Assembly (NCBI RefSeq): GCF_023238625.1
Contig: NZ_CP096670.1
Location: forward strand, 4,491,501-4,555,500
Direction of reading: 5' to 3'
DNA: 64,000 nt
From: Agarivorans sp. TSD2052
GTDB taxonomy: Bacteria; Pseudomonadota; Gammaproteobacteria; Enterobacterales; Celerinatantimonadaceae
Position 1 is the first letter of the stretch; each line of letters opens with the position of its first letter. The position numbers were made by a program, and so were the translations under genes. The notes below the pieces were generated by a model. It ran no database searches. It saw only the letters and a program-made list of their open reading frames with translations, and had not been told where the DNA came from. Of this stretch, positions 40,784-46,256 are shown piece after piece.

Positions 40784-40953
40784 AACTACTCTCGCAATTT
40801 AGGAAGGCGCAATTTACCGTTTTCCGCTCTTAAAGACAACAACAATGGTTAAAAATTAAACAACAAGTGCTAGTTTTTCGTTCTAAAGGAGGATTCTTTC
40901 GCTTAACAGCCTAGCCACGTATACTGTTAGCAGGTTTTCTCAGCGTATTATTG

Positions 40954-42312
40954 ATGGAACAACAACGCCAACAATTGCTTGATGCCCCCATCACGCCACT
41001 CATTATCAATAAAGCATTACCCAGTTTAGTTGGGATATTTTCGATCATCTTCTTTAACTTGGTTGATACGTTTTTTGTTGCCATGCTGGGCACTGATGCA
41101 TTAGCAGGCGTATCTTTTACTTTTCCTATTACCTTTGCCATTACTAGCGTGGCTATGGGCTTGGGGATTGGCTTGTCATCCCATGTGGGCCGTTTACTGG
41201 GAGCTCAGCAAAAACAACAAGCCGCTCAGCTTACCAGCCATGGTTTATTACTTAGTTTACTGTTAGTTATGGCTATAGCAGGGTTAGGGTATGTCAGCAT
41301 ATATCCTCTTTTTACCCACTTAGGTGCTGAATTACCGGTAATGCCTTATATCGAACAGTATATGCAAATTTGGTATCTGTCGGTGCCGCTGCTGGTGGTG
41401 CCAATGGTTGGCAATAGCGCAATACGAGCCAGTGGTGATAGTAAAACACCAAGCGTGGTGATGTTAGTTGCCGGCTTGGTAAACGGAATTCTAGACCCTA
41501 TTTTGATTTTTGGTTGGGGCCCGATCCCCACTATGGGGGTTCAAGGGGCGGCACTCGCAACCGCCATTGCCTGGGCTTTAACCTTTGTAGTGGCTCTTTA
41601 TTTACTGATATTTAGACTTAAACTGTTAGTGTTCAAGCTTTGTTCACTTCGTCTGTTAATTAGCTCATGGCAGAAGCTGTTGTCTATTGCGCTACCCGCC
41701 GTGTTTTCTCAGCTTCTAACTCCGATAGCCACAGCGATTACTCTGCTTATTCTCGCAAGCTTTGGTACTGCTACCGTGGCCGCCTACGGTTTTGCCACTC
41801 GGGTGGAGGCCCTTCTATTAATTGGAGTGATGGCAATAAACTCGGTGATCCCGATGTTAGTTGGCCAAAACGTCGGGGCAGGGCAAGCTGATCGTGCCCA
41901 ACAAATCGTGCACCATGGGATCCGTTTAGCGGTAATTTGGCAGTTAATACTGGCATTGCTGATGTATCTATTGGCCCCAGTGATCAGCCATAGTTTAAAT
42001 CATGATGCCGAAGTCGCCGAACTGAGTCAGTTTTATCTGCAATTAGTGCCATTTTGTTATGGCATGATGGCCGTACCATTGTTGTTAGCGCAAACCTTAA
42101 ATGCCTTAGCTAAGCCAATCTTAGCAATGGCGATTAACTTAGTCAGGTTATTTGGATTTATGTTGCCTGCTATTTACTTGGGTGCACTGTGGGGAAACAG
42201 TAAAGTTATCTTTTTAGCCAACATCGCAGCTCATACCCTTGCTGGTTTAGCGAGCTTAGCCATACTCTCTTACCTTATGGCTCAAAAACGTTGGTGGCGC
42301 AGCCAACATTAA
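40954..42312 (+). CDS. MATE family multidrug/metabolite exporter
   Basis: 452 residues with twelve predicted membrane helices in two MatE repeats (first repeat LINKALPSLVGIFSIIFFNLVDTFFVA; AIRASGDSKTPSVVMLVAGLVNGILDPILIFGWG). MATE proteins expel cationic drugs or metabolites using a sodium or proton gradient. ATG 40954 is preferred over TTG 40951. Its stop is immediately followed by the terminator hairpin that also ends csrB copy A from the other strand. Confidence 0.94.
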   Translation: MEQQRQQLLDAPITPLIINKALPSLVGIFSIIFFNLVDTFFVAMLGTDALAGVSFTFPITFAITSVAMGLGIGLSSHVGRLLGAQQKQQAAQLTSHGLLLSLLLVMAIAGLGYVSIYPLFTHLGAELPVMPYIEQYMQIWYLSVPLLVVPMVGNSAIRASGDSKTPSVVMLVAGLVNGILDPILIFGWGPIPTMGVQGAALATAIAWALTFVVALYLLIFRLKLLVFKLCSLRLLISSWQKLLSIALPAVFSQLLTPIATAITLLILASFGTATVAAYGFATRVEALLLIGVMAINSVIPMLVGQNVGAGQADRAQQIVHHGIRLAVIWQLILALLMYLLAPVISHSLNHDAEVAELSQFYLQLVPFCYGMMAVPLLLAQTLNALAKPILAMAINLVRLFGFMLPAIYLGALWGNSKVIFLANIAAHTLAGLASLAILSYLMAQKRWWRSQH

Positions 42313-42343
42313 AAAAGGGCGATACCGAAGTATCGCCCTTTTT
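42311..42343. terminator. shared bidirectional terminator of MATE gene and csrB copy A
   Basis: Stem GGGCGATAC/GTATCGCCC flanked by six A and five T. Read on the minus strand it is C(UUCG)G-capped and runs into a U tract, so it ends csrB-A. Read on the plus strand it ends the MATE transcript, whose stop codon overlaps its first bases. Confidence 0.93.
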
Positions 42344-42709
42344 AGTAGTCATATCGCTCTGGTCCATGAACGTTAATTGCTCCCTGCAATCCTTTTTGAC
42401 TGTTTCACACCTATCCGTAGTGTTTCCTCTTCCCAAATCCTTTGGGCTATCCTTTAGCCTTCTTTGGCATAAGCGTTCATCCTAAACACTTGCTCTCTCC
42501 ATCCTGGAGGTGTCCTTTACTTCATCCTGAAGCTGTTGGGTATGCTGCTCTCAAGCAATCCTATGCTGATTTCCTAGCTCATCTACCTTGATAAGCCTGC
42601 TCTTCCTGAGCGGTGCATCCTAAATACCTTGGCATCTTGCCCTGACTCTTCCTAAGCCTTGGCTCGTCCTGATGGGTAGTACTTTACGCTTTTGCTTTTG
42701 CTATCCCAG
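42315..42709 (-). ncRNA. csrB: CsrB-family CsrA-sequestering RNA, copy A
   Basis: About 395 nt on the minus strand, with roughly 20 GGA motifs, comparable to E. coli CsrB (about 369 nt). Many motifs sit in the loops of short stems: CTTC-AGGAT-GAAG, CTCC-AGGAT-GGAG, GCTC-AGGAA-GAGC, CCCAAA-GGA-TTTGGG, GGCTA-AAGGA-TAGCC. CAGGATG, the reported CsrB consensus, occurs. The RNA ends in a UUCG-capped terminator. Transcription probably starts near 42709, downstream of TACTAT at 42721-42716. It should bind and sequester CsrA dimers. The exact 5' end is inferred. Confidence 0.9.
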
Positions 42710-42838
42710 TAGCAAATAGTAAATAAATTCAGTTTTTCATACCTACATAAACACCAAAAGCTTCAACAAACTGAAAAATAACAATTAAATTTAAACCTAT
42801 CTAAAAAATAAGTGATATTACTCAATGGAAGTCGGGCT

Positions 42839-42849
42839 GATCTCTCACA
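42839..42849 (-). promoter_or_regulatory. UvrY/GacA-type activator half-site upstream of csrB-A
   Basis: TGTGAGAGATC on the minus strand, about 135 nt upstream of the inferred csrB-A start. It equals the left half of the palindrome recalled for E. coli csrB control by UvrY (TGTGAGAGATCTCTTACA). The same element lies at a similar distance before copies B, C and D. Confidence 0.7.
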
Positions 42850-43036
42850 TCGCTTCGGGCATATAAAGTAAAAGAATTAGACTTAACAACAGTACAAAGC
42901 TTCACGGAAAATAAAGTTAACCAACAAAAACACCAAGAGATAGCTAAAATCTGTAATTCATCGATCAACCGAGGGCTTGAAATAGAGGCTATTGCTCAAT
43001 CAGCGATATCGCTGTTTTTTAGGCGAGAAAAAGAAA
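42850..43036. other. spacer between csrB copies A and B
   Basis: AT-rich spacer. A plus-strand open stretch of about 60 codons runs through it (containing KVNQQKHQEIAKICNSSI) into the terminator of copy B, but has no start codon or ribosome site. It may be a decayed gene end or chance. Confidence 0.3.
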
Positions 43037-43430
43037 AGGGCGACACCGAAGTGTCGCCCTTAAAGTAGTCTTATCGCTCTGGTCCATGAACGTTAGTTGC
43101 TCCTTGCAATCCTTTTTAGACTGTTTCACACCTATCCGTAGTGTTTCCTCTTCCCAAATCCTTTGGGCTATCCTTTAGCCTTCTTTGGCATAAGCGTTCA
43201 TCCTAAACACTTGCTCTCTCCATCCTGGAGGTGTCCTTTACTTCATCCTGAAGCTGTTGGGTATGCTGCTCTCAAGCAATCCTATGCTGATTTCCTAGCT
43301 CATCTACCTTGATAAGCCTGCTCTTCCTGAGCGGTGCATCCTAAATACCGTGGCATCTTGCCCTGACTCTTCCTAAGCCTTGGCTCGTCCTGATGGGTAG
43401 TACTTTACGCTTTTGCTTTTACTATCCCAG
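43037..43430 (-). ncRNA. csrB: CsrB-family CsrA-sequestering RNA, copy B
   Basis: About 394 nt, nearly identical to copy A over the body (a handful of substitutions, for example TTAATTGCTCCC to TTAGTTGCTCCT). It has the same loop-exposed AGGA hairpins and a terminator GGGCGACAC-TTCG-GTGTCGCCC followed by TTTTC on the minus strand. The inferred -10 TACTAT is at 43442-43437. Copy B is the first unit of a 696-bp tandem duplication. Confidence 0.9.
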
Positions 43431-43559
43431 TAGCAAATAGTAAATAATTTCACTTTTTATTCTTCGCTGATCAGCGATTAAATATAAACGATTGAAATTA
43501 AACAATTAAATTTAAATTCAATTTGATTTTCGCTGACATAGCCCCACGCAATCAGGGCG

Positions 43560-43570
43560 GATCTCTCACA
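43560..43570 (-). promoter_or_regulatory. UvrY/GacA-type activator half-site upstream of csrB-B
   Basis: TGTGAGAGATC followed by CGCCCTG on the minus strand, about 135 nt upstream of the inferred start of copy B. Confidence 0.7.
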
Positions 43571-43732
43571 AGACGCTGGGCGAATAAAGCAGTAGTAAAC
43601 CAGTCACCAGCAAGATAAAAATCTAAATAAACCTAGTTATTCAAGCCAAATAACTGCCGACATCGAAAAGTATGCATAAAACACCGTAATACAGGTACGT
43701 TTGCGCCAGGAAGGCCAATCGCCAAAAAGAAA

Positions 43733-44126
43733 AGGGCGACACCGAAGTGTCGCCCTTAAAGTAGTCTTATCGCTCTGGTCCATGAACGTTAGTTGCTCCT
43801 TGCAATCCTTTTTAGACTGTTTCACACCTATCCGTAGTGTTTCCTCTTCCCAAATCCTTTGGGCTATCCTTTAGCCTTCTTTGGCATAAGCGTTCATCCT
43901 AAACACTTGCTCTCTCCATCCTGGAGGTGTCCTTTACTTCATCCTGAAGCTGTTGGGTATGCTGCTCTCAAGCAATCCTATGCTGATTTCCTAGCTCATC
44001 TACCTTGATAAGCCTGCTCTTCCTGAGCGGTGCATCCTAAATACCGTGGCATCTTGCCCTGACTCTTCCTAAGCCTTGGCTCGTCCTGATGGGTAGTACT
44101 TTACGCTTTTGCTTTTACTATCCCAG
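43733..44126 (-). ncRNA. csrB: CsrB-family CsrA-sequestering RNA, copy C
   Basis: Second unit of the 696-bp duplication. Body, promoter and terminator appear identical to copy B (terminator stem 43734-43755, inferred -10 at 44138-44133). About 20 GGA motifs. It should be functionally interchangeable with copy B and add to CsrA-binding capacity. Confidence 0.9.
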
Positions 44127-44255
44127 TAGCAAATAGTAAATAATTTCACTTTTTATTCTTCGCTGATCAGCGATTAAATATAAACGATTGAAATTAAACA
44201 ATTAAATTTAAATTCAATTTGATTTTCGCTGACATAGCCCCACGCAATCAGGGCG

Positions 44256-44266
44256 GATCTCTCACA
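44256..44266 (-). promoter_or_regulatory. UvrY/GacA-type activator half-site upstream of csrB-C
   Basis: TGTGAGAGATC on the minus strand, exactly 696 nt from the copy B site, about 135 nt upstream of the inferred start of copy C. Confidence 0.7.
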
Positions 44267-44428
44267 AGACGCTGGGCGAATAAAGCAGTAGTAAACCAGT
44301 CACCAGCAAGATAAAAATCTAAATAAACCTAGTTATTCAAGCCAAATAACTGCCGACATCGAAAAGTATGCATAAAACACCGTAATACAGGTACGTTTGC
44401 GCCAGGAAGGCCAATCGCCAAAAAGAAA

Positions 44429-44821
44429 AGGGCGACACCGAAGTGTCGCCCTTAAAGTAGTCTTATCGCTCTGGTCCATGAACGTTAGTTGCTCCTTGCA
44501 ATCCTTTTTAGACTGTTTCACACCTATCCGTAGTGTTTCCTCTTCCCAAATCCTTTGGGCTATCCTTTAGCCATCTATGGCATAAGCGTTCATCCTAAAC
44601 ACTTGCTCTCTCCATCCTGGAGGTATCCTTTACTTCATCCTGAAGCTGTTGGTACTTTGCTTTCTAACAATCCTATGCTGACATCCTAAACTCATCGACC
44701 TTGATAAGCCTGCTCTTCCTGAGCGGTGCATCCTAATACCTTGGCGTCCTGCCTAATTCTTCCTGAATTCTTGTCTCGTCCTGATGGTTAGTACTTTACG
44801 CTTATCCAAATAAAAGCCCAG
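44429..44821 (-). ncRNA. csrB: CsrB-family CsrA-sequestering RNA, copy D
   Basis: About 393 nt. The 3' half and terminator match copies B and C; the 5' half has diverged (for example CATCCTAAACTC where copy C has TTTCCTAGCTC on the plus strand), yet about 21 GGA motifs remain. Upstream of the conserved ACTGGG start region the promoter differs (TATTTTTGTCT in place of TACTATTTGCT). Divergence confined to one half suggests partial gene conversion with the neighbouring copy. Confidence 0.88.
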
Positions 44822-44952
44822 TAAGACAAAAATAAAAATATCCGCCCAACGCTATTACTTAAGAGGTAATCACAGTTAACACTCTGAATAGTAATAATAA
44901 AAAACGATCAAGCCTGACAAACAAAGAGACTTATCGGCATATTTAGATGGCC

Positions 44953-44963
44953 GATCTCTCACA
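44953..44963 (-). promoter_or_regulatory. UvrY/GacA-type activator half-site upstream of csrB-D
   Basis: TGTGAGAGATC followed by GGCCATC on the minus strand, about 135 nt upstream of the inferred start of copy D, although the surrounding spacer is unlike those of A to C. Confidence 0.7.
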
Positions 44964-45124
44964 CTACTTCAGGTTGATCGCCAAATAACCTTCTAGGCTT
45001 ACCCCACTACAATCAATAATTAGTCTACTGATAGTCACTTATAAAGGATAAAAATCTAAATAGGACGTATTCAGTTTCAGCATCAGCATCAGCATCACTT
45101 AAAACAATCGGTGACATTTAAACA

Positions 45125-45150
45125 ATAAAAAACCCAGCACATGGCTGGGT
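45125..45150 (-). terminator. second terminator behind csrB copy E
   Basis: On the minus strand ACCCAGC-CATGT-GCTGGGT is followed by six T. It lies just past the first hairpin of copy E (45164-45187), whose own T tract is displaced by GACC, so this may be the effective stop. Confidence 0.85.
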
Positions 45151-45163
45151 CTAGAAAAAGGTC

Positions 45164-45439
45164 GGGGCGACACTTACGTGTCGCCCCTAGTAGTCATATC
45201 GCTCAAGTCCGTGAACGGGTAGTTGCTCCCTGCAATCCTTTTTGACTGTGTTACTACTTCCTGTAGTTATCCTTTTCTCAAATCCTTTGAGCTGTCCTTT
45301 AGCCTTCTATGGCATAACCGGTTATCCATACCAGTTGCACGTCTCCTTCCTAGGAGGTGTCCTTTTGCTACATCCTGTAGCTGTCCTTTTTAGCTCCTGC
45401 TACGTATATCTTCCTGATAAACGTCAGTGCCTCCGTGCA
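45164..45439 (-). ncRNA. csrB: CsrB-family CsrA-sequestering RNA, copy E (divergent, shorter)
   Basis: About 276 nt (about 315 if it ends at the second terminator), with roughly 16 GGA motifs. The hairpins are kept by compensatory changes: CTACAGGATGTAG here versus CTTCAGGATGAAG in copy A, and CTCAAAGGATTTGAG versus CCCAAAGGATTTGGG. The element AAAAAGGATTGCAGGGAG near the 3' end is shared by all copies. A -10 TATAGT lies at 45451-45446 with no good -35, fitting activator dependence. Probably the older paralogue. Confidence 0.88.
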
Positions 45440-45594
45440 GAACTAACTATACGTATTTTAAATTTTAGAGAAAGCAGCATTTCAAAAAAAGTTTCATTTA
45501 TTTTGAAAAAAATATTAATGAATTCGTAAACCATTGAATAATATAATTATTAATAAAAATTTTGTGTTCATACTACGTCTATCGCGCACACTCA

Positions 45595-45612
45595 TGTAAG
45601 AGATCTCGCACA
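45595..45612 (-). promoter_or_regulatory. full UvrY/GacA-type palindrome upstream of csrB-E
   Basis: On the minus strand TGTGCGAGATCTCTTACA, one base from the 18-nt palindrome recalled for UvrY at E. coli csrB. It is centred about 165 nt upstream of the inferred start of copy E, a distance like that in E. coli, and 24 nt after the stop of the TRIC gene. Confidence 0.78.
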
Positions 45613-45635: not shown

Positions 45636-46256
45636 TTAACGATTTTTAGACAATTTGGGCAAAGATAAGTGATAGCGAATAGCCACCAAACGAATAGTTA
45701 GCGCGGTGATGATGCAACTAGCGGTAACTACCGTAGTAGAAAAACCAAGATGAATGGCTGCAACCCACACCAAGCCACCGACAATGCACGCCGTCGCATA
45801 AACTTCTCGTTGCAATACTAAAGGAACCTGATTGGCCAGCACGTCGCGGATCATCCCACCTCCGCAGGCGGTAATTACCCCCATCGTAACGGCGACAATC
45901 ATTGGCGCCCCCGCTTGCAACGCTTTATCAGCACCTATCGCCATAAACACTGCCATACCAACCGCATCAGCGACGGGCAATAACCAACGAGGCGGCGTAG
46001 GAAAATTATTCAACAACAATACTGCGCTTAAGCTTGCTATCAATATTACCCATAGATACCAACCATTCTCGACCCAAAAGACCGGGCTAACTCCTAGCGC
46101 CATATCTCGGATAGTGCCCCCCCCAATTGCAGTAACGCAGGCCAGGACTAAAGCGCCAAACAAATCCATTTTTCTGCGGCTAGCTATCAATACACCTGAG
46201 ATAGCAAAAACCGCAGTACCAAATAGATCGAGACTAAAAATGATGGTGTTGCCCAA
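45636..46256 (-). CDS. TRIC-type trimeric intracellular cation channel family protein (UPF0126)
   Basis: 206 residues with about seven membrane helices in two three-helix repeats. Each repeat has a glycine hinge: GGGTIRDMALG in the first and GGGMIRDVLANQ in the second, the family signature. Bacterial TRIC homologues conduct potassium. It is transcribed leftward, downstream of nadE after a hairpin, and ends just before the csrB-E activator site. Confidence 0.92.
   Translation of the reverse strand: MGNTIIFSLDLFGTAVFAISGVLIASRRKMDLFGALVLACVTAIGGGTIRDMALGVSPVFWVENGWYLWVILIASLSAVLLLNNFPTPPRWLLPVADAVGMAVFMAIGADKALQAGAPMIVAVTMGVITACGGGMIRDVLANQVPLVLQREVYATACIVGGLVWVAAIHLGFSTTVVTASCIITALTIRLVAIRYHLSLPKLSKNR

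Follow-up and report, generated by a model that had tools for sequence, protein, structure and literature searches.

The csrB array and its features

The 64,000-nt window analysed here, from the genome of Agarivorans sp. TSD2052 (all coordinates are those of this whole stretch), carries on its minus strand five head-to-tail genes of the CsrB family, RNAs that in the established Csr pathway are induced by BarA-UvrY and bind CsrA. A first-pass annotation had described about 3.3 kb (42313-45612, a range that stops at the regulator box upstream of unit 5) as five direct GGA-rich units with Rho-independent terminators and no credible protein gene, and an Rfam covariance search had been set beforehand as the test of their CsrB identity. 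This search, with the CsrB model RF00018, returned five matches of 80.2-91.5 bits (cut-off 71), each spanning model positions 1-356, and no other match anywhere in the genome (one contig, 4,616,181 bases; E 0.001). The features are given below in transcription order; transcript starts were assumed to lie 7 nt downstream of the -10 hexamer.

45595..45612, minus strand: upstream site of unit 5, a full palindrome of the VarA/UvrY type; 0 mismatches to the consensus in the available passages of PMC6262261
45446..45451, minus strand: putative -10 box TATAGT of unit 5, kept in 7 of 7 Agarivorans genomes
45153..45438, minus strand: unit 5, class A, first in transcription order; RF00018 match 45153-45439, 80.2 bits; 286 nt predicted; 16 GGA; terminator hairpin 45187-45164
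44953..44963, minus strand: left half-site TGTGAGAGATC upstream of unit 4, from the motif scan
44793..44821, minus strand: putative promoter of unit 4, class-B pattern, CTGGGC-N17-TAAAGT
44420..44785, minus strand: unit 4, class B; RF00018 match 44419-44744, 81.1 bits; 366 nt predicted; 20 GGA; terminator hairpin 44453-44428
44256..44266, minus strand: left half-site upstream of unit 3, from the motif scan
ending near 44098, minus strand: putative class-B promoter of unit 3, same pattern
43724..44090, minus strand: unit 3, class B; RF00018 match 43723-44048, 86.8 bits; 367 nt predicted; 19 GGA; terminator hairpin 43757-43732
43560..43570, minus strand: left half-site upstream of unit 2, from the motif scan
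ending near 43402, minus strand: putative class-B promoter of unit 2, same pattern
43028..43394, minus strand: unit 2, class B, its body the same as that of unit 3; RF00018 match 43026-43352, 91.5 bits; 367 nt predicted; 19 GGA; terminator hairpin 43061-43036
42839..42849, minus strand: left half-site upstream of unit 1, from the motif scan
ending near 42681, minus strand: putative class-B promoter of unit 1, same pattern
42311..42673, minus strand: unit 1, class B; RF00018 match 42306-42631, 90.4 bits; 363 nt predicted; 19 GGA; terminator within 42343-42311, from the fold
43028..44572, minus strand: 696-bp tandem duplication, with 44572-43724 and 43876-43028 identical
40951-42312: MATE gene flanking the array
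45636-46256: PF03458 'Glycine transporter' gene on the opposite flank, followed by an NAD synthase gene

The predicted transcripts together hold 93 GGA motifs, slightly short of the roughly 95 first claimed, and counts per 300 nt on the minus strand reach 16-19 at the csrB units, against best values elsewhere in the window of 7 (minus) and 8 (plus). The suggestion that many of the motifs sit in the loops of short stems was borne out in predicted folds, where 44-53% of the GGA of each unit fall in hairpin loops (at least 2 of the 3 nt inside the loop), whereas dinucleotide shuffles average 14-16%; the observed share was reached in 3, 1, 0, 0 and 4 of 200 shuffles, per unit, and the minimum free energy z-scores of the five units range from -2.8 to -5.5. 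A terminator scan listed a hairpin with a T-run for units 5, 4, 3 and 2. Unit 1 is absent from that list, and its fold ends at the 3' end in a 14-pair stem and T-run, an intrinsic terminator whose stem differs from those of the other units by a compensatory pair change. No credible protein gene was found within the array, its sole open reading frame of at least 80 amino acids being a 95-residue antisense frame with no Pfam match. By covariance score, by GGA in loops and as free-standing intergenic genes with terminators, the units belong to the CsrB/RsmB family, and the architecture described by the first-pass annotation thus stands.

The units were also compared for conservation. We aligned 12 of the 16 class-B units of seven Agarivorans genomes, this one and six others (G001-G006), leaving out unit 2, G003_2, G006_2 and G006_3; automatic unit ends overshot in some relatives, and G001_3, G002_3, G003_3, G004_3 and G005_2 were shortened before alignment. 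Across these 12 rows, 17 of the 19 GGA of unit 3 are invariant, and columns within GGA are invariant more often than others (54/57 vs 196/310; Fisher p 3e-7, for related sequences whose columns are not independent), while RNAalifold predicts 78 pairs, 5 of them with compensatory change (3 in internal stems, 2 in the terminator). In seven orthologous pairs the bodies are 86-97% identical, compared with 57-69% for the 220 nt upstream. Chance, or a repeat that is not an RNA gene (a simple repeat or coding sequence), would account for the repetition itself and nothing more; set against the covariance matches, the compensatory pairs, the lack of a credible reading frame and the absence of any short-unit tandem-repeat array across the csrB genes, such an origin has next to no likelihood.

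Regulator sites, putative promoters and a candidate CsrA sponge

With at most one mismatch allowed, a scan for the half-site gave 6 matches in the window versus 0.38 expected, and a palindrome or half-site begins 174-178 nt before each of the five predicted transcript starts. The full palindrome stands only ahead of unit 5; units 1-4 keep its left half, with 5-6 mismatches to the full site. The other Agarivorans genomes are similar: class-A units have a TATAGT box ahead of TGCACGGAGGCA in 7 of 7 genomes, their VarA palindrome has 0 mismatches here and 1 in each of the six others, and class-B units keep the left half with 4 to 6 mismatches to the full palindrome, again in all seven. The pattern CT[AG]GG[AC]-N17-TAAAGT precedes 15 of the 16 class-B units across the 7 genomes, although the class-A and class-B promoter patterns were both derived from the very sequences in which they are counted. 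Elsewhere the genome has a single match for CsrA and encodes homologues of UvrY (73% identity), BarA (46%) and CsrD (29%, in an open frame of 630 amino acids).

We consider it very probable that the array consists of five separate csrB genes that together form a CsrA sponge, one of raised dose and perhaps of graded induction. Each gene, with its own upstream regulator site, putative promoter and terminator, would give an RNA that offers 16-20 GGA, about half of them in predicted hairpin loops, and could bind several CsrA; CsrA would be sequestered, and its hold on its mRNAs lifted. UvrY/VarA, driven by BarA/VarS, probably turns the genes on, and five of them would supply more binding sites, possibly recruited by degrees. 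That the genes are transcribed, that their RNAs bind CsrA, that UvrY controls them, and that dose is both raised and selected for, we infer.

The same sites could instead indicate a device for differential control rather than dose, in which unit 5 answers to UvrY/VarA and units 1-4 to another regulator, or to UvrY weakly. Such a device would fit the full palindrome before unit 5 only and the half-sites before class-B units in 7 of 7 genomes, the two distinct promoter patterns, and the separate histories of the upstream regions, which the bodies do not share (see below). Half-sites may, however, suffice for control, and the upstream regions of units 2 and 3 are identical, so that between these two dose was added and no new control. 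We regard this alternative as unlikely, though not far-fetched.

Origin of the additional copies

In the newest duplication two stretches agree over 849 nt without a difference at an offset of 696, which places its breakpoint at some point within the final 153 nt that the units share. Exact identity of this length would also be seen if two real copies had been assembled as three. Exact repeats in assemblies collapse more commonly than they expand, the genome is a single contig, and units 5, 4, 1 and one of units 2 and 3 are distinct regardless; a fifth copy created by assembly error is, in our judgement, very improbable.

To compare the histories of bodies and upstream regions, we used trees of 15 of the 16 class-B units (G006_3, without the promoter pattern, was left out) and none of the 7 class-A units; the clades for testing were picked after viewing an earlier 23-unit tree. 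In the body tree, units 1-4 form a clade (support 96/97), and groupings of unit 4 with the second units of G001-G004 (approximately unbiased test, p-AU 0.0055) and of units 1-3 with the third units of G001-G004 (p-AU 0.022) are rejected. In the upstream tree it is the clade of units 1-4 that is rejected (p 2e-6), and unit 4 groups with the second units of G001-G005 (93/100, slightly below the tool's strong-support mark); two narrower positional clades are absent from the best upstream tree, yet the tests do not reject them (p 0.23 and 0.39). Body identity is 90-100% among units 1-4, versus 82-91% to the class-B units of the six relatives. Because the body and upstream trees conflict and the bodies are more alike within this genome, we read these comparisons to mean that the csrB bodies have undergone gene conversion or unequal crossing-over. 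The 220 nt upstream of unit 1 differ from those of unit 3 at 36% of positions, similar to orthologues of different species, so that the fourth copy probably arose long ago and the fifth recently. The five-gene array would then have grown out of the array of three seen in the genus: two copies would have been added by recombination between repeated bodies, which would also keep the four downstream bodies alike while their upstream regions diverge.

In a more elaborate form of this history, which we hold doubtful, gene conversion maintains the array as a CsrA switch with graded response. The gene with the full palindrome would answer first, and the four half-site genes would contribute further capacity once UvrY is more highly phosphorylated or when a second regulator acts; recombination would keep the bodies interchangeable, while promoters specialise and copy number shifts quickly.

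The cluster had at first been taken to imply selection for high sponge dose or for staged control. Such selection is plausible, but the newest duplication, without a difference over 849 nt, could be recent and neutral. The copies above three might be real csrB genes whose number varies by unequal crossing-over, neutral or transient and with no selection for dose, which would agree with the exact repeat at the 696-bp offset, with the three genes to which six of six relatives are limited, and with the largely redundant csrB copies of Vibrio in the available passages of PMC6262261. Against this, the between-species level of divergence upstream of units 1 and 3 suggests that the fourth copy is probably old, and that copy retains its half-site, promoter pattern, 19 GGA and terminator. 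We take neutral copies to be a serious contender, if somewhat short of probable.

Other observations weigh against a five-gene sponge under UvrY control. The right half of the regulator palindrome is missing from units 1-4, and no minus-strand promoter turned up in the array region when it was scanned for the sigma-70 consensus, so the argument for the putative promoters is solely one of conservation. The csrB1 gene of V. tasmaniensis is independent of VarS/VarA despite its VarA site (PMC6262261, available passages); sites alone are therefore no proof of control. Finally, the 23-unit tree that includes class A does not resolve units 1-4 of this genome, and the newest, identical copy may be both recent and neutral.

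Copy number in relatives and in known systems

A CsrB array lies at the same place in 6 of 6 other Agarivorans genomes, each with three RF00018 matches and three GGA-rich peaks. These genomes share with ours the locus, the neighbours and the order of class A first, then class B; they differ in having three csrB genes, two of them class B, rather than five, and the GGA total of 93 here compares with about 56 in G001. In the stretches fetched, the MATE, PF03458 and NAD synthase genes are all near the array in these six genomes and also occur in 3 of 5 further family genomes (G007, G009, G011); none of the three was found in the stretches fetched around csrB of G008 and G010. The best relative by the flanking transporter is Agarivorans sp. 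Toyoura001 (L025; protein 91% identical). Among transporter loci of Vibrionaceae and others, 9 of 80 (80 of 324 found) have an adjacent GGA-rich stretch at a loose threshold: L025 has three stretches of 16-21 GGA after the gene, and the eight others one weaker stretch of 8-14 GGA. In G006 the second csrB unit is separated from the third by about 2.2 kb that hold open reading frames of 313 and 168 amino acids (L110 3005-4481), where other Agarivorans have a short spacer, and the array-adjacent transporter gene (L110 5964-6580) matches in two pieces that overlap, as would be expected of a broken frame.

Counts across the order come from 128 genomes with 10 candidates scored in nearly all, plus 60 genomes with 21 scored in nearly all; a 394-genome count was set aside, as it scored 3 candidates per genome and showed 3 of the 5 of this one. 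An RF00018 match is present in 67 of the 128 genomes, and in 27 of these 67 at least two same-strand matches start at most 2 kb apart (a hand count by distance and strand alone, weakest matches omitted), so it is common in the order for csrB genes to be neighbours. Among the matches listed for the 128 genomes, the longest run is the one described here.

Match counts elsewhere reach five (G094), six (G012 and G058) and eight (G109), some of them within one long RNA, and the draft genome G084 (contigs C52, C95, C103, C117; L153) has seven over the cut-off, of which one pair is close and most are dispersed. We rejected a count of six genes for G012 and for G058, since several of their matches fall within one long GGA-rich stretch of 51-52 nt internal repeats: 753 nt with 56 GGA and about 11 head-to-tail repeats in G012 (L117 2512-3264), and 854 nt with 63 GGA and about 13 in G058 (L119 2229-3082), each with one terminator hairpin at the end. 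In these two genomes the sponge would be enlarged inside one RNA rather than via extra genes. A 675-nt GGA-rich stretch of G007 (L111 3017-3691; 48 GGA, one terminator hairpin) consists of two similar halves, as if two csrB genes had fused. In G109, GGA-rich units of varied length reach the ends of two contigs (L156 2045-4247, L155 15-1933), and L156 contains the same 51-nt repeat (9.8 and 3.8 copies by Tandem Repeats Finder); these stretches may together make up a single long array of large csrB genes, which may be as long as ours. A run of five csrB genes may thus not be unique.

The CsrB family, its function and tandem duplication are already known; the additions here are the length of the array, the co-evolving bodies, and the one full site with four half-sites. 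In the open-licence literature searched we found no report of five tandem csrB genes, which leaves absence in print unproven, and no paper that treats Agarivorans together with CsrA. The locus is an extended version of a known system, useful for asking why bacteria keep several csrB copies, an open issue raised in PMC6262261 (available passages). Agarivorans offers a natural copy series at one locus, three genes in six relatives and five here, and its closely similar bodies behind diverged upstream regions would let dose be split from differential control.

The background first given, that genomes carry one to four dispersed copies, proved too strong, given the tandem triplets of six of six Agarivorans, the adjoining csrB2 and csrB3 of Aliivibrio salmonicida (PMC6262261) and the tandem rsmX-1/rsmX-2 of Pseudomonas brassicacearum (PMC7911923), as given in the available parts of both papers. 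Pseudoalteromonas fuliginea, likewise a marine gammaproteobacterium, has several Csr RNAs shown to bind CsrA or to function as CsrB does, but these are three (Pf1, Pf2 and Pf3), with Pf2 and Pf3 flanked by different pairs of genes and not grouped in a single array (PMC11882849, available passages). The rsmX genes of P. brassicacearum and P. syringae encode GGA sponges under GacA and are amplified; for P. syringae, as many as five rsmX and as many as seven Rsm RNAs are cited. RsmX is, however, about 110 nt long and of another RNA family, and in P. brassicacearum its tandem is a pair (PMC7911923, available passages). In Vibrio tasmaniensis LGP32 (csrB1-4, four genes that act redundantly) and A. 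salmonicida, as at our locus, CsrB has multiplied by gene duplication with a VarA site upstream; the available passages of PMC6262261 give at most four copies and describe no five-gene array, and in the csrB3 of A. salmonicida they present the same arrangement of a new copy beside an old one.

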